Origin: Candidatus Schekmanbacteria bacterium
GTDB taxonomy: Bacteria > CSSED10-310 > JACPHN01
NCBI GenBank assembly: GCA_016188575.1
Contig: JACPHN010000149.1
Span: forward strand, 1 to 47,921
DNA length: 47,921 bases
Reading direction: 5' to 3'
Shown: positions 2,817 to 42,206 of the stretch, piece after piece
Position numbering within the stretch: the first letter of the stretch is position 1
Layout: each line of letters opens with the position of its first letter
The notes under the pieces: model-generated
The model's input: only the letters and a program-made list of their open reading frames with translations
Database searches by the model: none
What the model was told of the DNA's origin: nothing
Translations under genes and position numbers: made by a program

Positions 2817-2911
2817 CGAATCCGTCGCCTGCTCGGCTGAAGCTGTGCGGAAAGCGCATCCCGAAGACCCCGCACCTCACCTGCCCCCGCCCGCGGGGGG
2901 AGGCACGGAGG
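2817..2911. repeat. dispersed hairpin repeat, copy R1
   Basis: This copy has the 5' module (GAATCCGTCGCCTGCTCGGC, then AAGCTGTGCGG) and a GC-rich hairpin (CCCCCGCCCGCGGGGG) flanked by CCTCACCT. It overlaps the 3' end of the giant gene: its CCTCACC supplies that gene's TGA stop (2877-2879 on the minus strand), and the hairpin encodes the low-complexity C-terminus SVPPPAGGGR. Confidence 0.65.
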
Positions 2912-5900
2912 GGGGCGCTGGGCGGAGGTCGTACACGCGCGACAGCACCGCACCGTCCGCCTTTACCTCATGGGCCGGAGCTAGCGCCGCGTAGGGATTT
3001 GGGGCGAGGCTCTCGCGGTTCAGGACGATCGCGAACGCGGGGAAATCGCCGGTGACGACCAGGTCGCCGCGCAGTCGCGCGAGCCGCTGTAGGTCCAGAA
3101 CGACATGGACGCGGCTGCCCACCGGGGCCACGGTGTTGACGTATGCTCCTGCCTCCTGCAGAGAATTCCCCCAGTAGTCGAGCTCGTAGCGCCCCATCGC
3201 TCCCGCGCCGCCGCCGACAAGCGCGTTGAAGTAGGTGGTTTCGTACGGATGGATCCGCGCCACGCTCACCACCGCGACTCCGAGGACCGCGGCCGGGATG
3301 AGCCCCGCCACGATGCGGCGCCGGCGCCCTTCGCCGCCGACCCGCGCGACGACCGTATCGAGGCCAAATCCGACGAGGCACGCGAGAAATGGCAGCACGG
3401 AGAGAATGTGTCGGAGCCCGTCGTAGATGGGGGTGCGCAGCACGAGCCGCGTCAGCAACGGCAGGGCGAAGCCGGCCAGAACCAGCACGGCCAGGAGCTG
3501 TCGCCGCCTCGCTTCGACGCCTGCACGCACGAGCCCGGCCGCGGCAAACGGCAGCCACACCAGCGGCAGGGTGATGACCAGGTACTTCGGGGCGTACGAC
3601 CACGGCATCGCGTGAGCGCTCGCCATCCGGCCCTCATAGAGCACGTTGCCGTTCCACGGATGGTTCCCGAACCAGACAAACATCTCGATGAAACGATGGG
3701 CGGCATGCTCCCAGAGCCAGGGCCAGCACACCACTGTCGTCGCCAGCGCGGCCGTGCCATACAGGAGCGTCGCGGGCACGGCGAAGCGCAGGCGGCGCCC
3801 GCGATCGTCCGCTTCACCACTCATGCCGAGTACCGCAAACAGGGTCATGAGCAGCCCCACGATCGGTGCCAGAAAGGCGGCGCTGATTTTCGTCGCGAGC
3901 GCCATGCCCGAGATGATTCCAGCGCCCGTCATGCGGGCCAGGCCGCGCGCACGCAGGGCCGCGTGGAACTCCATCAGGGCGATCACCATCAGCACCGTCG
4001 CCGGAAAGTCCTTCGGGTTGTTGTGCGCATGGCCGAGCAATCGCGGCATGGCGAAATACGCGACCAGACAGAAAAACCCCGCGCGGGCGCCGAAATCGCG
4101 GCCGACCACGCCAAACAGCAGCCACCCCGAAAGCGCGTAGAGCAACAACAGATGGAGGTACCGCGCGTCGTGCGCCGCCATCCAGCCGAGCCGCACGCTC
4201 AGCGCCTCCTCGGAGACCGCGCCGAGCAGATCGGAGAAGGCGCCGTAGTACCGCCTGGCGTCATGGCCGTACAGGTCGGGGATCTTGTGATCCCCGAACA
4301 GGAACCTGAAGTACTCCTGCCCGTTCAAGCTCAGATCGACTTCGTCCCACGTTTCCCCGTACTGGTGCTGAACGGCCAGAAGCAGCGCCGCGAAGGCCAG
4401 GCAGAGGCCGATTGCGGCGCGACGCCAGGAAGTCGCCGCAGGACTCGAGCCGGCGTCCGGAAGCGGCGGCCGGGGCTGCCGGCGGGAAACGAGCATGGCC
4501 GCGGCGACCGTCGCCGCCAGCGTCGCCAGCGCCAACCACAGGCCGAGAAACGGCAAGCTCTCCAGCGGCCCCAGGTCTCGGTCAGGGAAGCGACCAAGAA
4601 CGTCAAGCTCGTTGATCGACCACCAGTACCGCGGATCGCTGCCAACTTGGATCAACTTGACGGCGCGACAGCGCTCGGGGGGGTCGAAAGCGATGGACGT
4701 GAGCGGGGCCGCGCCGAACACGGTCTTGACGGTCCGCCAGGAGACGCCGTCCGCAGAGGTCAGGACCTGCAGCTTGCGGGGATAGTCGAGGGGTGCTCCG
4801 AGGACATGAAGATCCAGGCGCGCGAGATCCCCCGGGCCGGGAAAGTCGATCTGGAACCACAGCCCGGCAAGCTGCGGCACGCCGCTATTCCAGCGCGTTG
4901 CCGGCATGCCGTCAATCGCTTGCTGCTCGAGGTAGGGATCGTTCCGGAACGACGAGACGCGGAGCTGCTCTTTCGCTACGGGCACGGCGCCGCCGGCAGG
5001 CGCCGCTGGTGCAGGGGCCGCCGGTGCCGGCGCCGCGGGTGCAGCCGCCGCCGGGGTTTGTGGCGCAGGGGCAGGCGGCGCGGGTGCAGGCGCCGCGGGT
5101 GCAGCCGCCGCCGGGGTTTGCGGCGCAGGGGCGGGCGGCGCGGCGTTCGCGGGCACTTCCCGGGGCGGCGCGGACGCCTGCTCTTCATTTCTCGGCGGCG
5201 CGGGGGCAGGCGGCGCCGGCCGCTCCGGGGACGGCGCGGCGGCAGCGACATCGGCAGCGACATCGGCAGCGGGGGCGGCTGTGGCGCTGGCCATGCCGAA
5301 AATCTCGAGCTCGCCGATCGTCCACCAGTAGATGGGATCGGCGCCTTTTTGCTCCAGGCGCAGAGCGCGACACCGCCGCGGCGGGCTGAGGGCGAGCTCC
5401 ATGTCCGGCCCCGTGCCGAGCACCTGCCCGGTGGGCTCGAAGTGCTCCCCGTCTGGAGACAGTGACAGCTCCAGGACGCGCGGGTAATCCTGAATCGCAC
5501 CTGCGAGGCGCAGGCGCAACCCCGCCAGCTCGACAGGCGCCGGGAAGGTGACGCGAACCCACTCGTCGCCTTGCTGCGGCGCGCCGGTTTGCCACAACGT
5601 GGTCGGATCGCCGTCCGTCATGCGCCCGACCGCATCGGTGCGGCGGTTTGCCGCGAGTGCGAAGCGCTCGGGGGTGATTCGGGGCATCTGTGCCAGCGTT
5701 CCAGGCGCCGCGGTCGCGACGCGACCTACCGGGGTCGCCTCTCGCTGGTCCGGCGTCACTGCCGCCGCGGCGCCCGCGGGTGCCGGTGCGCCGCTTGCGG
5801 GCGCCGCCCCCACCTGCCCGCTTTCCACCCGGACGCGGTTATCGGCGTTGCGCTCCTCGATGACAGCTACGTGGCTGCCGAAGCGGATGTCGGCGAGCTC

Positions 5901-8900
5901 GATGAGGCGAGCTGTCGCGGCGCCTGCCCAGTCACCCATGACCACTTCTTCGACGGTGACGTCGCGCTGCCCGAGCGCCCGAAACAGGTCGAGCTCGACC
6001 GCATGCCACTGCCCGTCCTGAAGAGCGTTGAAGCTGCCGATCAACATGTCCGACGGCCGCCGGTCATGCTCCAACCGCATTGGAATGGTTTTCCACTGGC
6101 CTTCTGCGTCCCCGGTCACGCGCAGCAGCATGCAATACGCGGTATTCGCGGCCATGCGATAGGCAAGGTGCACGAGGGGGCTTTCCTTGACGCGGAGCGG
6201 ACCGGGCAGCTTGACGGCAATGGCGCCGGGTTCCGCTCCGGGGTCGCTGATCACGTAGATCGGCCCTGCCTTGCCGTTCGCCGCCGGCGCCGCGAGCGCG
6301 ACGCTCCGGCCCATTTCGATGGCGTCTTCGCCGTGCAGCCGGCGCCGGTTCACGACCTGGTCGGGCGCGGCGGTCACGGTTGGCAAGCCGAAGCTGCCGA
6401 GCGCGAGCGGCGCAAACGCTCCGGCGCCCCTCTTGACCTCGGCCTCAAAAAAACTTTCTCCGCTGACCTGCGTGTACGTCACATACAGACGGTGGCGCCC
6501 GGGCTCGAGGATGATCGACCCCTCCTTGCGCGTCCGTCCCTGGCTGTTGAACATGCGGTTGTCGATCACGGTCCGGTCGTCGACGACGACCCCGGACCCG
6601 TCGTCCGAAGTCGTGGCGAAGGTGACCGTCTCGGGTGCTCCGATCTGGAGCTCCGCGGACCAGTCGACGCACGTGTCGCTGACAACCGCCTCGCCGAGCT
6701 CGACCACTCCAACTACCGCGCCGGCGGTCGGTTCGTTTCGGCACGCAGCGCCGCGATAGCGGTGCATCTGGAATCCGGCGCGCTTCACGCCGGGGCGCCG
6801 GCTGCGGGGGTCGACCTCGAGCACCGCCAGGGGGAACGCTTCGAGCCCCGTTGCGATGGCGCGAACGTCCGCAAAGACCGATCGAAGCAGCGCTTCGTGG
6901 CCCGCCATTGCCCCGACCAGAACCACGAGGTGCAGACCCGGCGCCAGCGCCGCGTCCGGGGCGAAAACCCGCATGAGCTCGCCGTCGTCGACGAGTCGCA
7001 CGCCCTCGAGCCCGCGGTGAGCGGCGGGGTCGGCGTGCTTTAGCCAGGGCAGCGCCAGGATGCGGTGGTGCGTGGCCCCGTATTTCGCGAGAACGTCGCG
7101 CAGCCGCGGCAGCGCGTCGCGATAGAAGCTCGGGATCTCGCGAAGCTCGTGTTGCCCGGTCACCCGAAAAACGCGGCGCGTAGGGTATCGGGAGATAAGC
7201 GCGTAGTCTTCCGACGGGCCGAGGTGGATCGCGTGTACGATATCCCCATCCATCGAGACCTTGCCGTCGCCGTCGACGCGCGGCTCATTGTCGGGTAGCC
7301 GCTGGGCGAAGCCCTTGTTGACGTCCGCATAGAAGAGCAGCGCGTCGTGGATTTCCTGACTTCTGAGCAGCGCCGGCAGCTCGGGGTCGATGCCGTTGTA
7401 AGAGGCATATTCGGAGCGCAGCCGCTCGCGCTGGTCGTAGACGACGTTATGGAGCAGGAAACCCGTGCACAGGGCCACCCCGACCGCGGTCCCGAGGAGA
7501 CGGCGCAGCCGGCCGCCGCGGGCCAGGAGAAAGGGCACCCAGAGCCCCAGCGCCGCCAGCAGCACCGTAATGTGCGTGATCTCGAAGAGCATGCGCGGCT
7601 CCCACATCCACCCGTGCCAGTGGAGGAAACTGTGCACGACCCAGAAGACGGCCATCGTCGCGTAGGCGAGCCGCAACCACAGCACCTGGCGCATGAGCGC
7701 GAGCGGCAACAGCACCGGCAGGAGATTGCCGGCGACGCCGAACCCAAAGATGCGCTGGCGATAGAGCGCGTAATTCATGAAGAGGTTCTCGAATCGCCAG
7801 GGCCAGCCATGCCCCCACCGCGCCGCCAGCGTCGTGCCGGCCTCGGGTCCTTTGGCCGAGTAGCCGAGCCCGAAGACGCCGGCCGTCAGCCAGGTGCGCC
7901 AGAGCTCGACGGAAGCGATCGCCAACCCGATCGCCATGGCAATCGCAACCGTACGGTGAGAAAATCGCCCGGCCCGCCACGATCGCAGGCACCAGATCGC
8001 CGGCACGGCGGCGGTGAGGACCGCCGACATGGGTCTCATGAGAAATGCCAACCCAAAGCACGCCGCCGCGGCGATCAGCCATTCCTCCCGCCCGGAGCGC
8101 GCGAGGCTCACCACACACAGCGTGCCGAGCTCGATGAACAGCAGGGCCGAGCCGTGGGCCATAAAGGAGGCCAGCAGCGTGACCGCGTATTGCGAGCTGA
8201 GCAGCACGGCGACCGCGAGCCATGCGAACGCGGCATTCCCGGTGAGCCGGCGGGCGAGACCGAAGAGCGCGGCGGTGACGCCGCCCGCAACGAGGATCGG
8301 GCCGAGCGAGCGGGATCCGAGCAGGTAGGCGGCGGCGAGAAGCGCCGAGTTGCCGATCGGGTGGAAGTTCCACAAGCGGCCATCGCCGGCCATCAAGTCC
8401 ATCCAGGAGACGCGGAAGAACGCGGCGAGCTGTGGTTCGGGGAGAAAGAGATGGCCGCCGGCGAGAATGCGGGCCTGGACGAGATAGTTGATCTCGTCGC
8501 CAAAGCCCGGGAGTGCATGAAACACGGAGAAGTGGACCCATCCCACGACGGCGGCGCCGGCCGCAAAGGCGCCCACGACCTGCCAGCGTCCGAGGGCAGC
8601 GAGGACCTTTCGCCCGATCATGCCGCCCGGCCTTCCTCCGCTCGAACGCGGGAGGGAGTGAGGTGAGGGGTCTGCTTGAGGACGGGCAAGCCCGCCCCAC
8701 CGGAAACGGGCGGCGCGCCTTGGAAGCGGCGGCACGCGGGGCGGCCCGAGGCACAGGCTCAGGCACAGGCCGAGCGCCGCCGCGGAGAAAAGCGCGCCGC
8801 CGAGTCCGCCGAGGATTACACGGCCCAGCCCGGGATCGTAGTCGACCGCGGTTTCCGTGCCGTGGCGTTGCAACTCGAGCTTGTGCGCGTAGAGCCGAAA

Positions 8901-9347
8901 CCGGACCTGGCCGAGCGTCTGGTCGGCGTCGGTGCGAATGTCCACGGCCGGATGGTACGGGTTCCAGAAGTAGAAGCGCGCGCCCGCGGTCAAATCCTCG
9001 CGGCGGATCGCCAGCGGTTTTTGCAGCGACTTCTCGTCGAGGTCGAGCTCGCGCAGAAGAAAGAGGGACTCTGCCCACAGGTTCTCCTCGCGCACGAGGT
9101 AGGGCGCGGCGCGAGGAATGTTCGGCCCGGTGTTGTACAGGTAGAGCCACGTCGTTTTCGGGAGGGAGCCGAGCTCGATGGTGACGCCGTTGGCGGTCAG
9201 CGCGAGCAGCTCACCGCGAGCGCGCAGCGTGAAGGTCACGCGATCCTCGCGAAACGCGGCGGCGGCGGCGACGAGGCTGAGGGCGAGCGCGGCGGCGCGC
9301 GCCGGCCAGGGCGAGCTCAGAACCGCGCGCCACATCGGCGTTACCAT
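2877..9347 (-). CDS. giant membrane protein: two GT-C glycosyltransferase-like halves joined by PA14-like and discoidin-like modules
   Basis: A 2156-residue protein. ATG 9347 has GGAG 7 nt upstream and lies 16 nt after rsmA. Modules in order: (a) residues 1-242, extracytoplasmic segment with TM helices near 10-28 and 205-235; (b) 243 to about 700, a polytopic GT-C (ArnT/PMT-like) region with an acidic pair D284-E285 in the first loop; (c) 880-970, PA14-like, with DDGSGVVVDD; (d) about 1010-1165, a beta-sandwich of galactose-binding type; (e) about 1223-1353, discoidin (F5/8C)-like; (f) 1355-1456, Pro/Ala linker; (g) 1458-1590, second discoidin-like, clearly related to (e): both contain DYPR and end in YWW-I-EL; (h) TM 1597-1620; (i) 1640-2150, second GT-C-like half with D1668-E1669. 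GT-C enzymes use polyprenyl-phosphate sugars and carry an acidic residue in loop 1. Transfer to lipid, protein or surface glycan is inferred. A second start at 8621 (MIGRKV) may mean two ancestral genes were fused. Confidence 0.75.
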   Translation of the reverse strand: MVTPMWRAVLSSPWPARAAALALSLVAAAAAFREDRVTFTLRARGELLALTANGVTIELGSLPKTTWLYLYNTGPNIPRAAPYLVREENLWAESLFLLRELDLDEKSLQKPLAIRREDLTAGARFYFWNPYHPAVDIRTDADQTLGQVRFRLYAHKLELQRHGTETAVDYDPGLGRVILGGLGGALFSAAALGLCLSLCLGPPRVPPLPRRAARFRWGGLARPQADPSPHSLPRSSGGRPGGMIGRKVLAALGRWQVVGAFAAGAAVVGWVHFSVFHALPGFGDEINYLVQARILAGGHLFLPEPQLAAFFRVSWMDLMAGDGRLWNFHPIGNSALLAAAYLLGSRSLGPILVAGGVTAALFGLARRLTGNAAFAWLAVAVLLSSQYAVTLLASFMAHGSALLFIELGTLCVVSLARSGREEWLIAAAACFGLAFLMRPMSAVLTAAVPAIWCLRSWRAGRFSHRTVAIAMAIGLAIASVELWRTWLTAGVFGLGYSAKGPEAGTTLAARWGHGWPWRFENLFMNYALYRQRIFGFGVAGNLLPVLLPLALMRQVLWLRLAYATMAVFWVVHSFLHWHGWMWEPRMLFEITHITVLLAALGLWVPFLLARGGRLRRLLGTAVGVALCTGFLLHNVVYDQRERLRSEYASYNGIDPELPALLRSQEIHDALLFYADVNKGFAQRLPDNEPRVDGDGKVSMDGDIVHAIHLGPSEDYALISRYPTRRVFRVTGQHELREIPSFYRDALPRLRDVLAKYGATHHRILALPWLKHADPAAHRGLEGVRLVDDGELMRVFAPDAALAPGLHLVVLVGAMAGHEALLRSVFADVRAIATGLEAFPLAVLEVDPRSRRPGVKRAGFQMHRYRGAACRNEPTAGAVVGVVELGEAVVSDTCVDWSAELQIGAPETVTFATTSDDGSGVVVDDRTVIDNRMFNSQGRTRKEGSIILEPGRHRLYVTYTQVSGESFFEAEVKRGAGAFAPLALGSFGLPTVTAAPDQVVNRRRLHGEDAIEMGRSVALAAPAANGKAGPIYVISDPGAEPGAIAVKLPGPLRVKESPLVHLAYRMAANTAYCMLLRVTGDAEGQWKTIPMRLEHDRRPSDMLIGSFNALQDGQWHAVELDLFRALGQRDVTVEEVVMGDWAGAATARLIELADIRFGSHVAVIEERNADNRVRVESGQVGAAPASGAPAPAGAAAAVTPDQREATPVGRVATAAPGTLAQMPRITPERFALAANRRTDAVGRMTDGDPTTLWQTGAPQQGDEWVRVTFPAPVELAGLRLRLAGAIQDYPRVLELSLSPDGEHFEPTGQVLGTGPDMELALSPPRRCRALRLEQKGADPIYWWTIGELEIFGMASATAAPAADVAADVAAAAPSPERPAPPAPAPPRNEEQASAPPREVPANAAPPAPAPQTPAAAAPAAPAPAPPAPAPQTPAAAAPAAPAPAAPAPAAPAGGAVPVAKEQLRVSSFRNDPYLEQQAIDGMPATRWNSGVPQLAGLWFQIDFPGPGDLARLDLHVLGAPLDYPRKLQVLTSADGVSWRTVKTVFGAAPLTSIAFDPPERCRAVKLIQVGSDPRYWWSINELDVLGRFPDRDLGPLESLPFLGLWLALATLAATVAAAMLVSRRQPRPPLPDAGSSPAATSWRRAAIGLCLAFAALLLAVQHQYGETWDEVDLSLNGQEYFRFLFGDHKIPDLYGHDARRYYGAFSDLLGAVSEEALSVRLGWMAAHDARYLHLLLLYALSGWLLFGVVGRDFGARAGFFCLVAYFAMPRLLGHAHNNPKDFPATVLMVIALMEFHAALRARGLARMTGAGIISGMALATKISAAFLAPIVGLLMTLFAVLGMSGEADDRGRRLRFAVPATLLYGTAALATTVVCWPWLWEHAAHRFIEMFVWFGNHPWNGNVLYEGRMASAHAMPWSYAPKYLVITLPLVWLPFAAAGLVRAGVEARRRQLLAVLVLAGFALPLLTRLVLRTPIYDGLRHILSVLPFLACLVGFGLDTVVARVGGEGRRRRIVAGLIPAAVLGVAVVSVARIHPYETTYFNALVGGGAGAMGRYELDYWGNSLQEAGAYVNTVAPVGSRVHVVLDLQRLARLRGDLVVTGDFPAFAIVLNRESLAPNPYAALAPAHEVKADGAVLSRVYDLRPAPPSVPPPAGGGR
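4985..5143. repeat. 60-bp internal repeat encoding the Pro/Ala linker
   Basis: Inside the giant gene, the block starting at 5041 recurs at 5101 (period exactly 60 bp, only a few mismatches over about 45 bp). It encodes 20-residue units of the type APAPQTPAAAAPAAPAPAPP between the two discoidin-like domains. Additional shorter Ala/Pro units flank it. In-frame copy-number change here would vary linker length without disrupting the domains. Confidence 0.8.
8627..8700. repeat. dispersed hairpin repeat fragment, copy R2, inside the giant gene
   Basis: On the minus strand this reads as CCCCTCACCTCACTCCC, then a GC-rich CCTCCCGCG arm and AGCGGAGGAAGG, matching the hairpin module seen elsewhere. It lies in frame and encodes residues ~217-242, a low-complexity Pro/Arg/Gly stretch (PPLPRRAARF..., ending SSGGRPGG) between the N-terminal module and the first GT-C half. 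It ends just before the internal ATG at 8621. Confidence 0.5.
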
Positions 9348-9363: not shown

Positions 9364-10299
9364 TCACCGCACGGGCTCAGGCGCCGCCGCTTCGCAGAGC
9401 TGCAGGGTGAGCGCCGCGAACTGGCCGATGGACAGCATCTCGGGGCGCTCGTCGGGGAGCTCGGCGCGCTGCAGCGCGGCGGTGGCGCACGCGCGGGAGG
9501 CGATTCCCGCAAGCGCGATGCCATTGCTCAGGCGCTTGCGGCGGTGGGTGAAGGAGCCGCGCACGAGGCGGTCGAAAAGGAGGTCGAGCTGCCGCGGCGA
9601 CGGGGCGGCCGAGGTCGTTGCGTGGCCTGCCGCCGACCAGGGCAGAGAACCTTCAGGGCACTCGCCAAAGGTCGCCTCGACGGCGACGGAGTCGACCTTG
9701 GGTTGAGGCCAGAAGGCGGAGCGGCCGACGCGAAAGAGCACCTGCAGTCGACAGCGGGTCTGAAACAGCACACTGGGCGCGCCGCGCGCGGGGGAACCCG
9801 GGGGGGCGCCGAGCCGAGCGGCCAGCTCGAGTTGCACCAGGAAAATCGATCGCCCTACGCCCATGCCGGTGCGGCTCAGCATGACCAGCAGTGGAACCGC
9901 GATGTGGTACGGAAGATTACCGATAAAGCGCGCACCGCAGCCGTGGCGGGGCAGCGGTGGGAGCATTGCGTCCGCGACGACGAGCGACACGTTGCCGCCC
10001 GGGTGGGAGCAGTCGCGGGGGGTGGCGCGCTCTGCCCGGAGCTCCGCGGCGAGAATCGCTGCGGCGCGGCGGTCGCGCTCGATCCCGACGACGCGCCGGA
10101 CGTGGGGCGACAGCGCGCGCGTGAGGAAGCCGAGGCCCGGCCCGATCTCGATCACGACCTCCTCGGCCTGCGGCGAGAAGCAGCGGACGAGGCGCTGGTG
10201 AATGTTCGGGTCCACGAGGAAGCATTGCCCGAGCGCCCGCACCGGCGCCGCGCCGGCCGCCGCCAGCAGCGTCTTGGCCTCCTGTCGCAGCGTCGTCAT
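9364..10299 (-). CDS. rsmA: 16S rRNA (adenine1518/1519-N6)-dimethyltransferase RsmA (KsgA)
   Basis: A 311-residue SAM-dependent methyltransferase that dimethylates two adjacent adenines in helix 45 of 16S rRNA during small-subunit maturation. Visible motifs: LGQCFLVDPN at 23-32 (the usual LGQNFL has Cys in place of Asn), the SAM loop EIGPGLGFLT at 51-60, and NLPY at 128-131 with preceding IG. The C-terminal helical domain contains the conserved FTHRRK segment. It is longer than E. coli RsmA (273 residues), mainly through an Ala/Pro insertion around residues 210-230. It starts 6 nt after pdxA, an arrangement shared with many Gammaproteobacteria, and its GAGGA ribosome site lies in the end of pdxA. 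Confidence 0.95.
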   Translation of the reverse strand: MTTLRQEAKTLLAAAGAAPVRALGQCFLVDPNIHQRLVRCFSPQAEEVVIEIGPGLGFLTRALSPHVRRVVGIERDRRAAAILAAELRAERATPRDCSHPGGNVSLVVADAMLPPLPRHGCGARFIGNLPYHIAVPLLVMLSRTGMGVGRSIFLVQLELAARLGAPPGSPARGAPSVLFQTRCRLQVLFRVGRSAFWPQPKVDSVAVEATFGECPEGSLPWSAAGHATTSAAPSPRQLDLLFDRLVRGSFTHRRKRLSNGIALAGIASRACATAALQRAELPDERPEMLSIGQFAALTLQLCEAAAPEPVR

Positions 10300-10305
10300 C
10301 CGATC

Positions 10306-11436
10306 TTATTCCTCGGCGGGCGCAGTCCGGCGCCTCCCGGGTCTCACCCGGCGAGCTCGGCAATACGCTCCGGCAAGCCTCAAGGCCAGCACCAGACTCT
10401 CCGCTCGCGCCTTGAAGCTCGCGGCGATGTCGAAGCCAGTCCAGTGATCGACGGACGTGCGCACGAAGGGAAGCCCGAGTGTCACGTTTACCCCGCCATT
10501 TCGCGTGAGCAGCTTCACGGGAATCATCCCCTGGTCGTGATACAGCGCCAGGACGTAGTCGAATTCGCCATCCAGCGCGCGGCGGAAGACGCTGTCGGCG
10601 CTATGCGGCCCGGTTGCGTCGATGCCGGCCGCGGCCGCGTCCGCGACGGCGGGACCCACCACCCTCTCTTCTTCCGTCCCCAGCAGACCGCCCTCGCCAG
10701 CGTGCGGATTCAGGCCACACACGGCGATGCGCGCCCGGCCACCGGTGTCGGCGAATACGTAGCTCGAGGCGTGGACAATCTTGAGGGCCCGCAGGATCGC
10801 CTGCCGCGTTACGCGGCCCGGAACCGCGCGCAGCGGGTAGTGGGTAGTCAGCACCCCGATGCGCAGGCCGCCCCCCACCATCGTCATCACGACGTGGCGC
10901 TTGCGCGCAGCGGCGGCGAGGAATTCCGTATGGCCGCGAAAGGGAGCGCCAGCGCGGCTGGTCCAGTATTTGCTCACGGGGGCGGTGACCATCCCTTCCA
11001 GACGGTGCGTCAAGACGAGCTGGGTAGCGACCTCCAGATACCGGAGGGCCGCGGCGCCGGTCGCGTCGGAAGGGGAGCCCGCCGGGACCGGCGCGGGAAT
11101 GCCGGCGCTGCCGGCCGACAGCAGCAGCACCTCGCCTGGCCCCAATGCGGCGGTGGCGGACTCCACGGTGAGGTCGCGCTCGGCCATCGCCACGAAGCGC
11201 ACGGGCGGACCCGACAGCGCACCGCGCTCGGCGAGCTCCCCGCAGCGGTGCACAAGCGTCGGCTCGTGGCCGATCACGACGATGCCGCGGCCGTCGACGT
11301 CGGGTCGTGAGAGCGCCTTGATGACGATCTCCGGCCCGATTCCCGCAGGATCTCCGGCGCACAGCGCCAGTGCCGGCGCCGCGGGCTCGCGGTGAGTGGG
11401 TAGAAGCGGTTTCTGTGCGGGACGCCGTGCAGTCAT
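10306..11436 (-). CDS. pdxA: 4-hydroxythreonine-4-phosphate dehydrogenase PdxA
   Basis: A 376-residue enzyme of vitamin B6 synthesis that oxidises 4-phosphohydroxy-L-threonine with NAD; the product is condensed with deoxyxylulose phosphate by PdxJ. Family signatures: GDPAGIGPE at 28-36, APVSK at 152-156, GHTEFLA at 168-174, NPHAGEGG at 243-250 and LYHDQGMIPVK at 298-308, with metal-binding histidines in the second, third and fourth. The length is somewhat above the usual ~330 because of an N-terminal extension and an Arg-rich tail. Its ATG overlaps the stop of the upstream flippase-like gene (ATGA, 11433-11436), so the two are probably translationally coupled; AAGGGG lies 8 nt upstream. Confidence 0.95.
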   Translation of the reverse strand: MTARRPAQKPLLPTHREPAAPALALCAGDPAGIGPEIVIKALSRPDVDGRGIVVIGHEPTLVHRCGELAERGALSGPPVRFVAMAERDLTVESATAALGPGEVLLLSAGSAGIPAPVPAGSPSDATGAAALRYLEVATQLVLTHRLEGMVTAPVSKYWTSRAGAPFRGHTEFLAAAARKRHVVMTMVGGGLRIGVLTTHYPLRAVPGRVTRQAILRALKIVHASSYVFADTGGRARIAVCGLNPHAGEGGLLGTEEERVVGPAVADAAAAGIDATGPHSADSVFRRALDGEFDYVLALYHDQGMIPVKLLTRNGGVNVTLGLPFVRTSVDHWTGFDIAASFKARAESLVLALRLAGAYCRARRVRPGRRRTAPAEE

Positions 11437-12479
11437 AGGACTTCCCCTTCGCCCCGGGCGATGAGCTCCTCGGCCCGGTTCTGCTCGTTCGCGCTCCCCA
11501 AGTCGCGGATGCGCAGGTGCTCGGTGTGCAAGAAATAGAGACCCAACAGCAGTATCGGCACGAAGCTCGAGGCGTGAATGACGATGGCGGCGCTCTTGGC
11601 GGTGGCCACCGGGCTGCCGAAACGCTCCAGCACCTCGGAGACGACCATGTGCACGGTGCCTACGCCTCCGGGTGAGGGGATAATCATCGCCAGTGCCGAG
11701 GCGCCGACGAGGAATGTCGAGCTCCACCAGGGCAGCGCGGAGAGACCGGCGCCGAGCAGCACCGCGTGCGCGGCGCAGATAATCGCGATCCACATCATCG
11801 TCGACTGAAAAAGGCCCCAGAAAACGTCGCCGGGCCGCCCGAGCACGCTGAGGCCCTCGACGAAGGTTCCCAGCAACCGCAACACAGCGTCGCGCGCGCG
11901 TTGCGGCAGCGGGGCGCACACGGCGCGCGCCAGAGCGACCACCGCGCGGGCTCTGAGGCGCAACGCCACGAGCAGGCCCAGGCCGCTGATGGAGCAGGCC
12001 GCCAGGATCAGGCCCCCGCGGCGCAGGTTTGCGGTGGTCACCAGCCCGTCGCTCGCCGTCGGCACCGGCGCCAGCAGCGAAATCGCTCCAAACAGCAACA
12101 ACACCACCAGAAAGTCGAACACGCGCTCGATGACGACGGTGGCAAAGGCGGCGCTGGCGCTGACCTGCTTTTCGCTACGGCCAAGCAACAGCGGCCGCGC
12201 GAGCTCGCCCGAGCGAGGAACCAAGTTGTTGGCACAAAACCCGATGACGACGAGCTTGAACAGACGCGAGAAGGGGAAGCTGCCGAGCGGGGACAGCAGC
12301 CGCCGCCACCGCACCGTGCGAATCCAGAAGCTGACCATGTTGATGGCGACCGCGGCGCCGATCGCCAGCGGGCTGACCATGGCCAGCGCCGCCCCAAGCT
12401 CGGCAAAGTCTACCTTGCGCAGGAACAGATAGAGGAAGGTGAGCGCGACGAGATTGGCAAGGAGGATCTTGATCTTCAC
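11433..12479 (-). CDS. LPG-synthase-TM / YbhN-family flippase-like integral membrane protein
   Basis: A 348-residue polytopic inner-membrane protein with about eight hydrophobic segments. It begins with KIKILLANLVALTFLYLFLR, followed by the family pattern: INMVSFWIRTVRWRRLL, then NNLVPRSGELARPLLLG, the characteristic N-P-R-x-G-E segment, and later IIPSPGGVGTVHMV, the second signature. Members are flippase domains of lysylphosphatidylglycerol synthases or stand-alone proteins linked to glycolipid or polyprenyl-sugar handling. The GTG start at 12479 overlaps the stop of the kinase gene (GTGA), so this start is well supported. Proximity to the GT-C giant gene suggests lipid-linked sugar export, which is inference only. 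Confidence 0.8.
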   Translation of the reverse strand: MKIKILLANLVALTFLYLFLRKVDFAELGAALAMVSPLAIGAAVAINMVSFWIRTVRWRRLLSPLGSFPFSRLFKLVVIGFCANNLVPRSGELARPLLLGRSEKQVSASAAFATVVIERVFDFLVVLLLFGAISLLAPVPTASDGLVTTANLRRGGLILAACSISGLGLLVALRLRARAVVALARAVCAPLPQRARDAVLRLLGTFVEGLSVLGRPGDVFWGLFQSTMMWIAIICAAHAVLLGAGLSALPWWSSTFLVGASALAMIIPSPGGVGTVHMVVSEVLERFGSPVATAKSAAIVIHASSFVPILLLGLYFLHTEHLRIRDLGSANEQNRAEELIARGEGEVL

Positions 12480-14713
12480 GACGCGAGCTCGGAAGAAAGG
12501 TCGCCGCGCTCGATCGCCAGGATTTCGACTACCGCAGAGACGTCTGCGGAAAGATTCTTCAGCAGTAGGGAGGTCGCAGGCGCATCGAACCTGCTCTTGC
12601 CATTTTCGACATTGGCGAGGGTGAGGCGCTGCCGAGCGTTGGCAAGGCCGGCGTCGATCGCGAGCAGGCGAGTCACCGCGCGGTCGCGACCACGGCGCGC
12701 CTGCTCGACGCGCTCCAGCGTATCGAGCAAGTAGCGGTGGCGATCCATCAGCGCCTGCGCGTCGTCGGACAGCGCGGCCTGGTCCACGCGGAGCTGCAGA
12801 TCTTCCAGCTCGCCCATGATCGCGCGCTCGTCCACGGCGGCGATGGCATCCTCGAGGTCCTGAGCCGCCGCGGCGAGGCGCACGACCTGGTCGCGAAGCG
12901 CATGCACGTCTTCCCCGAGCTCCCCCGGAGAGCTTTGCACGGGCATTGCGTCGTCGCGGCCGAGGGCTGCACCCATGGCGACCTCGAGGTCGAGCGAACG
13001 TTCGAGAATGCCCTTCAGCAGGCCTCGCAAGTACGGCGATGAGACCTTCCGCAAGGCGTCGCGGGCCTGCTTCGCAAGGCGGTTGGACGACGGAAGCATG
13101 GCCCAGGGCGCGGACAGGTGGGCGAGCGGTTCGACCGACCGCGATAGCAGGGCGACGGCCGCCAACAGTACCAAGGGGAGGGTAATGCTGGTAGCCGGAT
13201 GAGCCAGGCTGACCAGAACGCCGACCATGACCAGCACGCGGGTGAAGACGCGCGCCGCGCGCCGGCCTGTGAAGGTCACCTTGAGCAGGAAACCGAGATT
13301 CCACGGCGCGACGGCAGCGGCCGGCAGGCCCTGCTCGTGCAGGTAGCGCATGAGGCCGGCGGCCTGTTCGCGGTCGACGCCGCTCAAGAGGACCGTCGGG
13401 GGTTCTTTGAGTCGCGCGTCCGCCACGTCGGGATCGATCGGCGCTTGCTGGAGCTGCTCCAAGATAGACACGAGGCGCGCTTTTTCATCGTAGGTCAGGT
13501 AGTCTCGGCTGCGCCGGTGCCTATTTCGCCGCTTGCGGCCGTGCCGCGACCGCGACGGGATCACCACCAACCGCCGGCGCATCCACGCCGGGGGGCGTTG
13601 GCCGGCGAGGACCAGGGCCCGCTCGGGAAGGGACGTCGCGGAGGCTTCGCGGGCGTCGCCGGGGGCGGCGCTGGAGATCAGCTCGAAGCGCTCGCGGCCG
13701 CAGCTCAAGCAGATGGGAAGGTGGGTGGAGGAGGTTTCCGAGCAGCTCGGACAGGCCCAGGTGTGGCGGCTCGCGGCCGCAGGTTTCGCGCGCGTCGCGG
13801 GCTGACGGGGCAGCGGCGGCGGCTCGGAGTCGCCGCGGGCGCCACCAGGGTCAGGCAGCTCGGCGCGGGAAAATGAGCCGGTGGGAGCGTCCTCAGCGAA
13901 CCGCGACAGCTCGGTCGCCATGCGCTCCGCGGTCGAAAAACGGTACTCGGGCCGCTTCTCGAGCGCCGTCAGCACGATTTCACACAGACCGGCGGGCACG
14001 TCCTGCACCAGCTCGCGCGGATCCCGTGGCGCCTCCTCGGCGTGCAGGCGGATGAGCTCGTAGGGGGCCCGACCCGCGAACGGCAGCCGACCGGTGAGCA
14101 GCTCGTAGAGCACCACGCCGAGACTGTACACGTCCGACCGGGGGTCGAACGGCAAGTCGAGAAACAGCTCGGGCGGGGCATACTCCGGGGTGCCGAGAAA
14201 CGTGCTGTGGGACGTGAGGCTGACCAGCGACTGGATCTGCGCCAGGCCGAAGTCGGCGATGCGGATGCCGCCGTCCGTCCCCACGAGCAAGTTGTGAGGC
14301 TTGATGTCGCGGTGGATGATGCCCGCCTCATGCGCAGCGCACAGGCCGCGGCAGGCGTCCAGACCGATGCGCGCGACCTCCAGTGGCGGCACGACGCCGC
14401 GTTGCCTCAGGAGCTGTCGGACGCTGCCCCCGGCGACGTGCTCCATGGCCAGGAACATCGCCTCGGGCGTGTCGTAGAGGTCAAAGACGCGCACGATGTT
14501 CGGATGCACGAGCATCCGGGCCGCGACGGCTTCGCGGCGAAACCGCTCGGTAATGGCCGGATCCCTGCGCAGGTGCGCGAACAGCACTTTCAGCGCTACT
14601 TCGCCTTGCAGCAGGCCATCGAAGCAGAGGAAAACTTCGCCCATTCCTCCCTGCCCGATGCGCCGGCGCACTTCGAAGCGTCCATCGGCGAGTCGGTCAC
14701 CGCTCTCTACCAT
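12476..14713 (-). CDS. Ser/Thr protein kinase with zinc ribbon and C-terminal membrane/coiled-coil region
   Basis: A 745-residue Hanks-type kinase. Residues 13-280 form the kinase domain: glycine loop GQGGMGEV at 20-27, Lys42, Glu61, HRDIKPHN with catalytic Asp136, DFG Asp154, and activation/P+1 segment GTPEYAPPE. A four-cysteine zinc ribbon (CPSC...CLSC, ~318-340) follows. After a basic region come two adjacent hydrophobic segments (VLVMVGVLVSLA and ITLPLVLLAAVALL) and a long C-terminal helical region with heptad character that probably forms a coiled coil. All kinase catalytic residues are present, so it should be active. The start at 14713 has GGGGAGA 7 nt upstream. It lies 108 bp after a PhnD-like gene and overlaps the flippase-like gene by 4 nt, so a signalling role for this envelope block is plausible. 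Confidence 0.85.
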   Translation of the reverse strand: MVESGDRLADGRFEVRRRIGQGGMGEVFLCFDGLLQGEVALKVLFAHLRRDPAITERFRREAVAARMLVHPNIVRVFDLYDTPEAMFLAMEHVAGGSVRQLLRQRGVVPPLEVARIGLDACRGLCAAHEAGIIHRDIKPHNLLVGTDGGIRIADFGLAQIQSLVSLTSHSTFLGTPEYAPPELFLDLPFDPRSDVYSLGVVLYELLTGRLPFAGRAPYELIRLHAEEAPRDPRELVQDVPAGLCEIVLTALEKRPEYRFSTAERMATELSRFAEDAPTGSFSRAELPDPGGARGDSEPPPLPRQPATRAKPAAASRHTWACPSCSETSSTHLPICLSCGRERFELISSAAPGDAREASATSLPERALVLAGQRPPAWMRRRLVVIPSRSRHGRKRRNRHRRSRDYLTYDEKARLVSILEQLQQAPIDPDVADARLKEPPTVLLSGVDREQAAGLMRYLHEQGLPAAAVAPWNLGFLLKVTFTGRRAARVFTRVLVMVGVLVSLAHPATSITLPLVLLAAVALLSRSVEPLAHLSAPWAMLPSSNRLAKQARDALRKVSSPYLRGLLKGILERSLDLEVAMGAALGRDDAMPVQSSPGELGEDVHALRDQVVRLAAAAQDLEDAIAAVDERAIMGELEDLQLRVDQAALSDDAQALMDRHRYLLDTLERVEQARRGRDRAVTRLLAIDAGLANARQRLTLANVENGKSRFDAPATSLLLKNLSADVSAVVEILAIERGDLSSELAS

Positions 14714-14821: not shown

Positions 14822-15856
14822 CTATTGTTGCCTGGCCACGGCTCGCACGGCCCATTCTGGGCGTCCGATGCGATCCAGGAGCTCCTCGATCGACGCCACG
14901 GGCGCCAGATGGTGAGCGCCGAGCACGACGAGCGTAAACTGGCCAGGCGGAACCTTGTGCATGCGCCCGAGCTCGCCGCGGTACTCGACGATGAGGTCCG
15001 GCGTGCACGTCTTGCGAAAGGCCGCAAGCACCGCATAGGACGGGACCTGACGCGTCTGATAGAATACCTTCATCTTCTCGGAATGCTCCGGAAACATCTC
15101 GCGGAGCACGGCGAGGTTGACTTCCGTCGAGACTCCGGCCACGGCCTTCGTCGCGATCATCGCGTTCAGGGCGTCCTCAGGCAGAGATTCCACAGCAAAA
15201 TCGATCTGGTCGAAAGCGACGAGGCCGGCTTCCGGAGTTTCGTCAAAGAGAACGGACCAGAGATAACCGAGGCTACGGTGCGTGAAGCCGGGAACCGACA
15301 CCTTCTGGCCAACGATGTCCTTGATGGAAGCGATCTTGCTATCCCCATAGGTAAAGAAGGAGAATCGCTGCACGCTTGAGCCATCTTCGTCCTCTGCCTG
15401 GAACATCACATCCAATCCGAGGTCTTTGTAGTGTTCCAGGAAATACAGGGTATCGAAGACTCCGAAATGGGGCGTAGTGGATTTCAGGTATTCTTCCAGG
15501 GGGGCCTGCTTGAAAAAGACCTCGTAACTGTGTTTCCGCGCGCGTTCCTTGTTCATGTACTCGACGTAGGGGTCAACGACGAACCTGGCAGCGTCCTCGT
15601 CATCCACGGCCAGGCCGGGGCTGAAGATAACGATCTTGACTTCGTCCACGCCCGCGGCCCGAGGAATGACCTCTGCATCGCCGGAAGGTTCGGGCGCACC
15701 GGTGGTCGCCGTTACCTCGGGCGCGGGCGCGGGGTCGGGGGGAGATGCCGCGTCCTGGGCGCGAGCACTGGGCAGCATCACCGCGAAGAAGAAAAGGACA
15801 GCCGCAACCGTCGACGAATACACGTCCGCGCGCGACGAGCTTCCACGAGTCAGCAC
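14822..15856 (-). CDS. PhnD-like periplasmic binding protein (second copy)
   Basis: About 344 residues. The N-terminus is a signal peptide (hydrophobic STVAAVLFFFAVMLPSARA, predicted cleavage before QDAA) followed by a Pro/Ala/Glu linker of about 40 residues, longer than usual, as if the binding domain stands off a surface. The core has VKIVIFSPGLAVDDEDAARF, FGVFDTLYFLEHY, FTYGDSKIASIKDIVGQKVSVPGFTHRS-type hinge features and C-lobe YAVLAAFRKTCTPDL, as in PhnD/TAXI-like binding proteins. I prefer the GTG start at 15856, with AGGTGA just upstream; GTG 15862 in the same frame is an alternative. It is immediately upstream of the kinase and 51 bp after the zinc-ribbon gene, so it may be the sensor of a ligand-responsive kinase module rather than a transporter component. 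No permease is nearby. Confidence 0.65.
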   Translation of the reverse strand: MLTRGSSSRADVYSSTVAAVLFFFAVMLPSARAQDAASPPDPAPAPEVTATTGAPEPSGDAEVIPRAAGVDEVKIVIFSPGLAVDDEDAARFVVDPYVEYMNKERARKHSYEVFFKQAPLEEYLKSTTPHFGVFDTLYFLEHYKDLGLDVMFQAEDEDGSSVQRFSFFTYGDSKIASIKDIVGQKVSVPGFTHRSLGYLWSVLFDETPEAGLVAFDQIDFAVESLPEDALNAMIATKAVAGVSTEVNLAVLREMFPEHSEKMKVFYQTRQVPSYAVLAAFRKTCTPDLIVEYRGELGRMHKVPPGQFTLVVLGAHHLAPVASIEELLDRIGRPEWAVRAVARQQ

Positions 15857-19217: not shown

Positions 19218-19721
19218 ATGACGCTCAAGACTGCCGGAATTCTGGGATTGGTGCTTACTGGTTCGCTGCTTTTGGCCGCTTCGACAGCGCGCGCTGCGAA
19301 CAACGACTCGATCGTCGTCAACTTTCAGGTCAACGCGTTCAGCGAGATCCAGTTCCAGGAGGCAAGCGTCCTGCTCGTTGCGACTCCTCCAGCGCCGGGC
19401 GCCAACCCCGCGCCGGTTACGCAGACCGCCCACTACGACATCTCGACAAACGAGGTTGGGCGCAAAATCACCGGCAACATCGACTCCGGCATGCCCGCCA
19501 ACACCGCGCTCAGGCTCAATCTGACGCCACCCGCTGGCGCTACCGGCGGCGGCAACCTGATCTTGCCCCCAACCCCCGGTGCGGTGGACCTGGTGACCAA
19601 TATCGGCCCAAACGCGACGGTCGGCCTGAACGCCGTCTTCGAGTTCGCCCCCAATGCCACCGCGGGCGTGATCAATCCCTCCCAGTCGCGCACGTGCACG
19701 ATCACCATCATCGCCCAATGA
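19218..19721 (+). CDS. secreted pilin-like protein, first of the fimbria-like cluster
   Basis: A 167-residue protein with a classical signal peptide (MTLKTAGILGLVLTGSLLLAA, cleavage after ARA). The mature part is beta-rich, Asn/Pro/Gly-rich, with alternating hydrophobic strands such as SIVVNFQVNAF and a final strand TCTITIIAQ, as in donor-strand-exchange pilins and DUF4402-type coat proteins. There is only one cysteine in the mature part, so no internal disulphide. GGAGG lies 5 nt before the ATG, and the stop overlaps the next ATG. As the first gene of a cluster with a chaperone-like and a barrel protein, it is a good candidate for the major subunit. Confidence 0.6.
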   Translation: MTLKTAGILGLVLTGSLLLAASTARAANNDSIVVNFQVNAFSEIQFQEASVLLVATPPAPGANPAPVTQTAHYDISTNEVGRKITGNIDSGMPANTALRLNLTPPAGATGGGNLILPPTPGAVDLVTNIGPNATVGLNAVFEFAPNATAGVINPSQSRTCTITIIAQ

Positions 19722-20245
19722 TCAGGCTCGCGGCGGCCGGAGCCCGCCCGCGCGGCAGCGTCCGGGTGCCCCTCCTTATTGGTGCGGTCGCCGTCTGCGC
19801 GGCCGCTCTTGGCTCCCTCGCGCAAGCTGCCATTTCCATCACCGCCGACGCCGACTGGTCCCCCTCGGTGGGCGCCGCCGATCTACAGGCAGGTCCAGGT
19901 AGCAATCTCGCCGCTCTGAAGCTCTCGCCACCTGGCCATGTCGTTATTGAGATCACGGGAACTACCGGCAATTTCGACTTCTGGCAGGTCGACGTGCATC
20001 GGGTCAATTTTGGCTGGCATCCAAGCCTCGGCATCGCGGTCAAGCGAATGGGCCCCGGAGCCGGCCCCGGAGCCGTCAATGGCGGCCTGATCCCCGTCGA
20101 CGTGACGCTCACCCCGACCAACTTCTTCAGCGGCAGAGGCGACCGCGTGGCGATCCCGATCGAGGTGTCCATCAACGGCATCTCCGTTGCCATCCCCCCG
20201 GCGACCTACACCACGCGCGTCGTGTTTACCGTCATCGACATATGA
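19718..20245 (+). CDS. secreted pilin-like protein, second subunit
   Basis: A 175-residue protein with an N-terminal signal (hydrophobic LLIGAVAVCAAALGSLAQA, cleavage before AISI). The beta-strand pattern resembles the preceding protein and ends with the C-terminal strand TRVVFTVIDI. It begins with an ATGA overlap with the upstream stop and ends with another ATGA overlap with the chaperone-like gene, so the three genes form a tightly coupled operon. I infer a minor or tip subunit. It was not recognised as a named family. Confidence 0.6.
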   Translation: MIRLAAAGARPRGSVRVPLLIGAVAVCAAALGSLAQAAISITADADWSPSVGAADLQAGPGSNLAALKLSPPGHVVIEITGTTGNFDFWQVDVHRVNFGWHPSLGIAVKRMGPGAGPGAVNGGLIPVDVTLTPTNFFSGRGDRVAIPIEVSINGISVAIPPATYTTRVVFTVIDI

Positions 20246-21072
20246 CCCACGCCCTGACTCCCGTGCTTTCGCCCACCCTGGCCATCCTGGTGCTCGCCTT
20301 CGTGCCCGCCGCTCAGGCGCGCGGAGTCAGCGTGATCGGCGATCTGGTTCGCGAGCACACAGTCTCACCTGGCCAGACGGTCGAGGCCTCCATGGACCTG
20401 CGCAACGACCTTGAGCAGCCCGTGACCACTCGCATCTACCAGACCGACTACACGTTCACGGCGGGCGGTGAGAACCGCTACCCGGAGCCTGGCACGCTCG
20501 CCCGTTCCAACGCCCCCTGGATCGCAGTCACTCCGTCCCTGGTGCGCATTGCCGAAGGCAGCTCGGCGCACGTCGAATATCGAATGACGGTCCCGAACGA
20601 CCCCGGGCTCGCCGGAACCTACTGGAGCCTCCTGATGGTCGAACCCCAGGCGGCACCGACCGCGGACGTGCCGGCCGCCGCGGGCGAACAACCTCGCGCG
20701 CGGTTCGTCACGGTGGTCCGTTACGCCGTCATCATCATCACGCACGTCGGCGACAGCGGCAAGGCCGAGCTTCGCTTCACCGACAAGAGAATCGTCACCG
20801 ACGAACGTGGCGGGCGGGTGCTTCGCCTTACCGTGGAAAACACCGGCGAGCGATCGCTGCGGCCGGCGGTTTGGGCCGAGCTGTACGACGACTCGGGGAC
20901 GAAAATCGCCCGTCTCGAAGGCCCCCGGAAGTACATTTTTCCGCAGTGCTCGACCACCTTTGACATGGACCTCTCCACGGTCGGCCCCGGCCCCCGCAAG
21001 GCACTGGTCATTGCAGATGCCGGTGGCGAGGCGCTGTTCGGCGCGCAATATGACCTGCAAATCGCGGAGTAG
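20242..21072 (+). CDS. fimbrial-chaperone-like periplasmic protein
   Basis: A 276-residue protein with a signal peptide (MTHALTPVLSPTLAILVLAF, cleavage near AQA-RG). Two Ig-like domains can be followed: domain 1 with VREHTVSPGQTVEASMDLRN and the IAVTPSLVRIAEGSSAHVEYRMTV strand pair, typical of PapD-like chaperones, and a C-terminal domain with LRLTVENTGERSLRPAVWAEL. The canonical chaperone positions are not obvious, so this may be a chaperone analogue. It shares overlapping starts and stops with both neighbours. Confidence 0.6.
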   Translation: MTHALTPVLSPTLAILVLAFVPAAQARGVSVIGDLVREHTVSPGQTVEASMDLRNDLEQPVTTRIYQTDYTFTAGGENRYPEPGTLARSNAPWIAVTPSLVRIAEGSSAHVEYRMTVPNDPGLAGTYWSLLMVEPQAAPTADVPAAAGEQPRARFVTVVRYAVIIITHVGDSGKAELRFTDKRIVTDERGGRVLRLTVENTGERSLRPAVWAELYDDSGTKIARLEGPRKYIFPQCSTTFDMDLSTVGPGPRKALVIADAGGEALFGAQYDLQIAE

Positions 21073-21970
21073 CGCCGCCTGCCTCGTCGCGGTCATGGCC
21101 GGCGTGGCGCTCGGGTGTGCCGCCTCGGCCGCCCGCGGCGAGGCCCCGGCCACGCCTGAGGCGCTCACCGCCGCGGCCGCCGCCGCGCAGCCGGTGGAGG
21201 TGATGCCAGGTGACGTCTTGCCGCTCGGTTTCCTGGTCACCTGGCACCGCGTTGAGGCCGGGGTCGTTAGCGATGTGCTGCGGCTCCCCGCTGCCTGGGC
21301 TGGCGCGATCGAGTCGGCGCCACAGCGCTTGACGACCGGACAAAAGGCGTTGCGGCTCAAGGTCCTTCGCGTTCCGCGGCAAGCGCGGGCCGGCCTCTAT
21401 GAGGTGAGGTATGAGGCGCGGGGAGAAAGCGAGACCGGAGGCGTCACGGCGCACGCCACCGCCACCGCCGAGGTACGCGTCGCGGCGCGGCCCGGGCTCA
21501 CCCTCGAGCTGCGCTCGCCGCCGCCGATCGTGGCAGCGGGGACAGAGGCGGAGGCGGCGCTTCGCATCACGAACAGCGGCAACACCGACCTCGTCGTCGA
21601 GCTGCGCGACGAGCGCGGGGGACCCGACGGCGTCGCGATCTCCCCGCGCCGCGTCGCGCTGGCGGCAGGAGCTGCAAGCAATGTCCTCGTCACCCTGCGA
21701 ACGCCGCCTCATGCCGTCCGCGCGGGGCAGCAGGCGGTGAGGATCGTGGCGAGGGCGGCCGGTGATGGCGAGGCGCCGATCACCCAGGCGATCGCGGTCC
21801 CTTATGAGGTGATCCCGACCGTGGATCCGACCGCGGACATGTTCCACCTGCTGTCCGGCAGCGCCCGCGCGGTTTACGCCAGGTCGCACCGCCTTGCGGC
21901 AGTCCAGGCCGAGGTGGCTGGTGAGTCGGCGACGGCAGAGGACGAACGCAAGCGCTTCTCTTTTTTCTGA
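21050..21970 (+). CDS. N-terminal (zero-frame) part of a split outer-membrane barrel protein: signal peptide plus Ig-like domains
   Basis: Zero-frame product of 306 residues. A signal peptide (SSAACLVAVMAGVALGCA... cleavage near ARG-EA) is followed by an Ig-like domain around 145-243 of NEW3 type: AAGTEAEAALRITNSGNTDL then SNVLVTLRTPP. The ATG at 21050 overlaps the end of the chaperone-like gene. The frame ends ...KRFSFF-stop at 21968-21970, in the middle of a coding region whose continuation lies in the -1 frame. Fused through the T6 run, the product would be ~963 residues. Confidence 0.65.
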   Translation: MTCKSRSSAACLVAVMAGVALGCAASAARGEAPATPEALTAAAAAAQPVEVMPGDVLPLGFLVTWHRVEAGVVSDVLRLPAAWAGAIESAPQRLTTGQKALRLKVLRVPRQARAGLYEVRYEARGESETGGVTAHATATAEVRVAARPGLTLELRSPPPIVAAGTEAEAALRITNSGNTDLVVELRDERGGPDGVAISPRRVALAAGAASNVLVTLRTPPHAVRAGQQAVRIVARAAGDGEAPITQAIAVPYEVIPTVDPTADMFHLLSGSARAVYARSHRLAAVQAEVAGESATAEDERKRFSFF

Positions 21971-21994
21971 GAGGCCCCGGTGATGAGTCGGGGC
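21961..21994 (+). promoter_or_regulatory. candidate programmed -1 frameshift signal
   Basis: The heptamer T TTT TTC at 21961-21967 has the X XXY YYZ form in the zero frame (TCT TTT TTC TGA); both tRNAs could re-pair on TTT TTT in the -1 frame. The stop codon TGA follows directly. A 6-bp all-GC stem, GCCCCG at 21974-21979 with CGGGGC at 21989-21994 (9-nt loop), begins 6 nt downstream. An AGAGGA stretch lies about 18 nt upstream, which is farther than the stimulatory Shine-Dalgarno of dnaX. Homopolymer indel error is the main alternative explanation. Confidence 0.45.
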
Positions 21995-40966: not shown

Positions 40967-41374
40967 ATGCTCGATTTGCCCGCCATTCAGCTCCTGCACG
41001 CCGCGCTCAACGGCGCGGCGCGACGCCATGACGTCATCGCCTCCAACCTCGCCAACATCGACACCAAAGGATACCGCGCCAAGGAGCTCGATTTTCAGAA
41101 CGTTCTGCGGCAAGCGATGGGCAGCAGCGATGAGGCGGCGGGCCTGGGAGTGCAGGTGACGGATTCCCGACACCTCCAGCCCAGAGAATCGTCACTCGAC
41201 TACGCCGGCGCCATCACCGAGCAGCCGCTGGGTGCCATGCGCGCGGATGGCAACAACGTCGACGTCGATCGCGAGATGCTTGCGCTGGCGGAAAACGGTA
41301 TGCTGTACAATACCATCGCGCAGCTCACCGGATCAGGGCTCAAAGGCATCATCGAAACCATCAAGGCGGTATAG
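40967..41374 (+). CDS. flgB: flagellar basal-body rod protein FlgB
   Basis: 135 residues, typical length. The N-terminal rod signature is seen at 13-34 (AALNGAARRHDVIASNLANI, with SNLAN then TKGYRA) and the C-terminal helix ends LTGSGLKGIIETIKAV. FlgB forms the proximal rod with FlgC and FlgF. The ATG at 40967 has only a weak ribosome site, but the conserved start fits. Confidence 0.95.
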   Translation: MLDLPAIQLLHAALNGAARRHDVIASNLANIDTKGYRAKELDFQNVLRQAMGSSDEAAGLGVQVTDSRHLQPRESSLDYAGAITEQPLGAMRADGNNVDVDREMLALAENGMLYNTIAQLTGSGLKGIIETIKAV

Positions 41375-41380
41375 ACCATC

Positions 41381-41842: not shown

Positions 41843-41856
41843 TGGAGTGAACACCG

Positions 41857-42183
41857 ATGCGCATAGAAGATTTCAATATCGGCCGACCGCTCACGCTGCC
41901 GCTCGGACCGGAGACTGCGGCAAAACCTGCCGGGTCGCTGGCGGCGCCGCCTGACCCCAACCGTCCGACCTTCGGTGACACGCTCAAGAGCGCCATTCGC
42001 GAGGTCAATGAGGTCAAACAGGAAGCAGAGGAAGCGGTGCGCAAGCTCGCCACCGGGGAAAGCTCCGACATCCACGGCGCCATGATCGCCGTAAAGAAGG
42101 CGGATGTGCAGTTTCAGATGATGATGCAAGCCCGCAACAAGCTGGTTGAAGCCTACCGGCAGGTCATGCAGACGGGAATCTAG
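41857..42183 (+). CDS. fliE: flagellar hook-basal body protein FliE
   Basis: 108 residues. The C-terminal half carries the FliE core: FGDTLKSAIREVNEVKQEAE, then GESSDIHGAMIAVKKADVQF and MQARNKLVEAYRQVMQTGI. FliE joins the MS ring and the rod. The first 30 residues are Pro-rich. It begins 14 nt after flgC. Confidence 0.95.
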   Translation: MRIEDFNIGRPLTLPLGPETAAKPAGSLAAPPDPNRPTFGDTLKSAIREVNEVKQEAEEAVRKLATGESSDIHGAMIAVKKADVQFQMMMQARNKLVEAYRQVMQTGI

Positions 42184-42206
42184 GCGGGACGCGAGGATAA
42201 GGCAGC

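Follow-up and report, generated by a model that had tools for sequence, protein, structure and literature searches.

A single reading frame with two predicted GT-C glycosyltransferase halves and intervening PA14-like and discoidin modules in a CSSED10-310 bacterium

The window analysed here is one whole contig of 47,921 bases from a 9.2 Mb, 275-contig assembly of Candidatus Schekmanbacteria, and it belongs to CSSED10-310, a phylum described as rare and uncultured (PMC8248873). On its minus strand, positions 2877-9347 hold a giant gene encoding a protein of 2156 amino acids in one continuous open reading frame, as the original prediction had stated. The longest version of this frame (P0001, 2877-9524, minus strand) would encode 2215 amino acids, its first 59 codons overlapping rsmA; the ATG at 9347, 16 bases after the rsmA stop, is the likely start, because the longer N-terminus would run into rsmA (9364-10299) and this ATG is closely preceded by a GGAG. 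Residue numbers below follow the 2215-residue frame, and subtraction of 59 converts them to the 2156-residue form. The gene is the last in a same-strand run whose members overlap by 4 bases or are separated by gaps of 6-16 bases. The upstream genes of the run and the domains of the giant protein are as follows.

12476-14713, minus strand: Ser/Thr protein kinase, head of the run (Pkinase, 170 bits)
11433-12479, minus strand: LPG_synthase_TM (flippase-like) membrane protein (133 bits)
10306-11436, minus strand: pdxA (PdxA, 291 bits)
9364-10299, minus strand: rsmA (RrnaAD, 113 bits), 16 bases upstream of the giant gene
8631-9347, minus strand: N-terminal unit of transmembrane segment, periplasmic beta domain and transmembrane segment, residues 60-298 (hydropathy; alignment with L076, L077 and L030; strands in a low-confidence model)
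6945-8630, minus strand: putative GT-C1 with C-terminal periplasmic part, residues 299-860, D343-E344 in the first loop (PMT_2, 36.1 bits; confident model; homologues)
6375-6842, minus strand: PA14-like domain, residues ~895-1050 (PA14, 17.1 bits, below the cut-off of 24; common to L076 and L077; Foldseek)
5679-6374, minus strand: stretch between the PA14-like domain and D1, residues 1051-1282 (no Pfam match; unreliable model)
5319-5678, minus strand: F5/8C (discoidin) domain D1, residues 1283-1402 (Pfam profile)
4980-5318, minus strand: Pro/Ala linker, residues 1403-1515 (single full copy in the genome)
4590-4979, minus strand: F5/8C (discoidin) domain D2, residues 1516-1645 (Pfam profile)
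2877-4589, minus strand: putative GT-C2, residues 1646-2215 and stop, D1727-E1728 in the first loop and an NNPKD motif (PMT_2, 29.6 bits; homologues; hhalign to GT-C1)

The giant gene and rsmA are probably in the same operon. Although the RrnaAD and PdxA matches agree with the earlier description of pdxA and rsmA as housekeeping neighbours, the run also contains the LPG_synthase_TM gene, which may be a functional partner of the giant protein. Elsewhere in the window, two phosphonate-type periplasmic binding proteins (1661-2650 and 14822-15823) flank the kinase-to-giant run. Positions 19218-23940 encode small exported proteins and one CarboxypepD_reg protein, a cluster that by eye resembles the chaperone-usher pilus type (Pfam was run on two of its proteins), and 40967-47244 appears by eye to be a flagellar basal-body operon in flgB to fliI order.

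For the two membrane halves, the PMT_2 profile (PF13231) scores above its cut-off of 26.1 bits in each, with 36.1 bits in half 1 and 29.6 bits in half 2. The AlphaFold2 model of half 1, built from 23 alignment rows, has a pLDDT of about 90 across the GT-C core, and its best structural matches by VIA-align are ALG12 (Z 28.6 over 410 residues, rmsd 4.6), STT3, PMT, ArnT (Z 24.6) and PglB, followed at a lower level by AftA, AftD and EmbB; matches to the AftD/Emb fold range from Z 15 to 18.5, the last being AftD 6w98. No AftD/Emb family profile was listed for the giant protein at E values up to 1, and a profile search of PDB sequences with the half 1 and half 2 families returned nothing relevant. 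The model of half 2, from a three-row alignment, has a mean pLDDT of 42.8, and this half is placed as a probable GT-C by its PMT_2 match, its DE and NPKD-type motifs, its homologues and a profile-profile match. Between the two halves, hhalign gives a probability of 97.9% and blastp an E value of 0.33. Since there is no significant blastp match, the halves appear to be two different GT-C families that were fused, related at the profile level only, and a tandem duplication of one GT-C is ruled out.

The first-loop Asp-Glu pair is found in both halves. In half 1 the Asp (D343, or D284 of the 2156-residue form) is invariant in 8 of 8 rows and in the 23-row alignment, with the Glu kept in 4 of 8 rows, whereas in half 2, 29 of 30 rows keep both the Asp (D1727) and the Glu, and the remaining row is truncated. 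Profile matches in both halves and the modelled fold of half 1 thus bear out the proposal of two GT-C-like halves, each with a first-loop Asp-Glu, with the qualification that the Glu is the less conserved residue in the half 1 family. The N-terminal unit, absent from the original prediction, is also present in half 1 homologues. Hydropathy fits a predicted topology in which this unit, the first loops of both GT-C halves and all of the modules would face the periplasm.

Among the modules between the halves, the discoidin domains are the most clearly recognised: the F5_F8_type_C profile (PF00754) scores 64.7 bits over two stretches against a cut-off of 28.2, each copy exceeds this cut-off alone (44.2 and 32.6 bits), and D1 and D2 are about 40-43% identical, in agreement with the predicted pair of homologous domains. 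The proposed PA14-like domain is less clear-cut, as the PA14 profile (PF07691) reaches 17.1 bits, below the cut-off of 24; however, single-gene homologues align across the domain, the same profile scores 19.2 and 17.0 bits in the homologues of loci L077 and L076, and Foldseek lists PA14 proteins at E values of 0.007-0.04 where the local pLDDT is 53-81. The galactose-binding-like domain that had been assigned to about 5679-6374 was not recovered, this stretch having no Pfam match and a pLDDT mostly under 50.

The window's own genome encodes other large proteins with related parts. P0002 (L009:6083-11875, contig C68 of G000; 1930 aa) consists of a PMT_2 membrane half, a DUF2298 membrane half and NHL repeats, an architecture that rules it out as a copy of the giant gene. 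P0003 (L071:4441-11202, contig C206 of G000; 2253 aa) is a secreted-looking subtilase with Peptidase_S8, F5/8C, purple-acid-phosphatase-N and weakly Ig-like matches, and is likewise ruled out by its combination of Peptidase_S8 with F5/8C. A 960-residue PMT_2 protein (L074:3365-6247, minus strand, contig C177 of G000) has a clear PA14 domain (46 bits) and no blastp match to GT-C1 at E 0.01, so that it is not a GT-C1 copy.

Homologues of the parts occur as separate genes. The N-terminal domain, GT-C1 and PA14 form one gene of 959 aa in locus L077 (Acidobacteria MAG-257; 37% identical over GT-C1) and one of 933 aa in L076 (a Roizmanbacteria MAG; 33% identical over GT-C1), and half 1 with the N-terminal domain alone makes up a 760-residue protein in L030 (CSSED10-310; 26%). 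GT-C2 stands alone in L029 (CSSED10-310; 507 aa, 33%), where it adjoins a membrane protein gene without a Pfam match, and has a homologue in L076 that is 26% identical to that of the window. In a GT-C2 tree of 21 rows, the window, L029 and L076 group together with 88/85 support, which is below the star level of the tool, and on long branches. Two GT-C2-family genes lie side by side in each of two other genomes (L154:6546-9658 and L152:6589-9902).

Locus L076 has strong members of both families, and the genes there follow the order of a homologue of the P0002 N-terminal half, GT-C1-PA14, a GT2 (Glycos_transf_2, 104 bits) and GT-C2, with short overlaps between successive genes (10 and 8 bases on the two sides of the GT2); an LPG_synthase_TM gene lies further along the island, making this family common to the window and L076 neighbourhoods. 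This separate-gene version points to the GT2 as the likely donor maker. A relative of the L076 GT2 is encoded in the window's genome on contig C210 (36%), not beside the giant gene, and adjoins a long membrane-protein frame whose likeness to DUF2298 was judged by eye. Strong members of both families were found together in 1 of 29 loci, all of which had been picked for holding one family or a weak module match, so that the near-adjacency is a single case; in each of four further loci (L032, L151, L158 and L160), both profiles, or the one for the other family, match a frame weakly.

A second fused copy was not seen across the 386 sampled genomes other than the window's own, and thus no homologue keeping the full architecture was found there; in these searches the best two or three candidates were scored per genome, and the absence of a fusion is therefore not proven. 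GT-C2 matched in 53 of these genomes (own included), and in the 52 others its stand-alone frames measured about 300-1000 aa, the longest being 998 aa and none fused. The profile of half 1 with PA14 matched in 84 (own included), where other frames longer than 1000 aa matched the PA14 part only. Half 1 matched in 11 of 145 genomes (own included), again with no fused homologue. None was found among 10 stretches retrieved by a short pattern or in the 29 loci that a scan of 84,980 species genomes yielded, whose longest frame was 1016 aa; both scans need the exact pattern and so leave absence unproven. Eight genomes of the window's phylum, searched with the module region, and 8 of the phylum of G141 yielded no fused homologue, and no relative appeared among the 37 and 69 stretches matched by pattern in viral contigs.

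As every homologue found is separate, the join might be a misassembly or misreading of two genes, an explanation to which the failure to find a second fused copy in the searches made and the 275 contigs of the assembly lend some weight, but which is very improbable on the other evidence. The frame is single and open, and codon usage is even: of 21 blocks of 100 codons, 20 favour it, and in the remaining one, which is the Pro/Ala linker, the score of -2 in frame is still the best of the three (-30 and -31 in the others). The 333-base linker matches in full at a single place in the genome, and elsewhere there are three partial matches alone, which are short and weak (32-56 bases, 80-89%). In L076 and L077 as well PA14 is continuous with GT-C1, so that a false join would be possible solely between PA14 and GT-C2, both of which are parts expected of membrane glycosylation. 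The giant gene is real, and is unusual in being double, yet it is made of known parts.

Much of the bacterial cell surface is made by GT-C enzymes, whose partners are difficult to identify; where two of them are naturally fused, the fusion suggests a working pair. The fusion, together with separate-gene homologues that are in one case near neighbours, suggests two linked steps of cell-surface glycan building. It is plausible, and on balance somewhat favoured, that the giant protein is a natural single-chain and probably bifunctional inner-membrane glycosyltransferase, in which two fused GT-C families would use lipid-linked donors while the modules hold the acceptor. On the periplasmic side of the membrane, each GT-C would transfer a sugar carried on polyprenyl phosphate to a glycan, or glycolipid, that is complete or still being extended. 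With PA14 and both discoidin domains on a flexible Pro/Ala arm keeping this acceptor close to the two active sites, one sugar would be added after the other. Acceptor binding by PA14 and discoidin is proposed because the modules of AftD, EmbC and GT136 bind the acceptor. We infer the activity of both halves, the lipid-linked donor, the binding of the acceptor and the order of the steps, and the service of one acceptor by both halves in sequence is the least-supported step of the proposal. A more specific form, in which the arm would carry the acceptor on from site one to site two without releasing it, as in a two-station assembly line producing a disaccharide unit or a backbone plus branch, is offered tentatively.

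Known GT-C complexes include several in which unlike subunits are paired, and it is conceivable, if rather unlikely, that sugar is transferred by one half alone, the other being a degenerate GT-C that serves as a scaffold or as a binding site for the acceptor or the lipid carrier. The loss of the first-loop Glu from half of the rows of the half 1 family would fit such a division of labour; however, the copy in the window keeps the invariant Asp and the family motifs in both halves, and each half has many stand-alone homologues. Both halves might instead be active on unrelated acceptors, with the fusion merely fixing their co-production. This option is marginally less probable again: the separate homologues are mostly apart, but the consecutive overlapping genes of L076 and the GT-C2 grouping suggest that the pair travels together. 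Discoidin and PA14 domains also occur in adhesins, and F5/8C is present in the secreted protease-like giant of the same genome; nevertheless, it is highly unlikely that the giant protein functions chiefly as an adhesin or sensor at the surface, with its membrane parts serving only as an anchor, as it has two GT-C domains with their motifs kept and its homologues are plain GT-C enzymes.

Among known systems, the combination of a GT-C with a carbohydrate-binding module is already represented by AftD, EmbC and GT136, whereas no protein with two GT-C catalytic units in a single chain appears to be described in the literature searched, which comprised titles and the starts of abstracts, with subscription journals mostly outside its scope; within the same scope, the earlier statement that no family with this domain order has been described holds. 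AftD, a mycobacterial and corynebacterial arabinofuranosyltransferase, resembles the giant protein in joining a GT-C fold to an extracytoplasmic carbohydrate-binding module, which in C. glutamicum lies in a long loop between the 10 first and the 4 final transmembrane helices (PMC6034362). However, AftD has one catalytic unit. In the giant protein the second membrane block matches PMT_2 independently and has homologues that stand alone, and it would be a complete GT-C from a separate family. GT136 ORF12 of Citrobacter youngae and EmbA/B/C are periplasmic GT-C enzymes that use a polyprenyl-phosphate sugar and have a module binding the acceptor polysaccharide (PMC11127046), but they have one GT-C unit each, and the ORF12 module has an immunoglobulin-like fold in place of PA14 and discoidin. 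The sugars of GT-C enzymes come from lipid carriers that are made by a separate synthase and moved across the membrane (PMC11127046, PMC11754754). Activity of GT136 did not require its binding module in the conditions that were used (PMC11127046), and acceptor modules thus need not matter for catalysis; the giant protein may offer a single system for testing the role of an acceptor module in GT-C catalysis, a question described as open for GT136 (PMC11127046).

Closer relatives cover the giant protein in parts. The N-domain-GT-C1-PA14 proteins of L077 and L076 match its first ~960 residues and lack the discoidin domains and the second GT-C, and the GT-C2 family (L029, L076 and others) has PMT_2 and the DE and NPKD-type motifs in common with it in stand-alone frames. 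A Chloroflexi MAG encodes, near a GT-C1 relative, a protein with PMT_2, two PA14 stretches and NHL (L079:8586-12020), and modular GT-C giants thus recur in other phyla. P0002, from the window's own genome, likewise combines two membrane blocks with a beta-rich module in a giant protein, but the families and their order are different; a separate gene homologous to its N-terminal half immediately precedes GT-C1-PA14 in L076.
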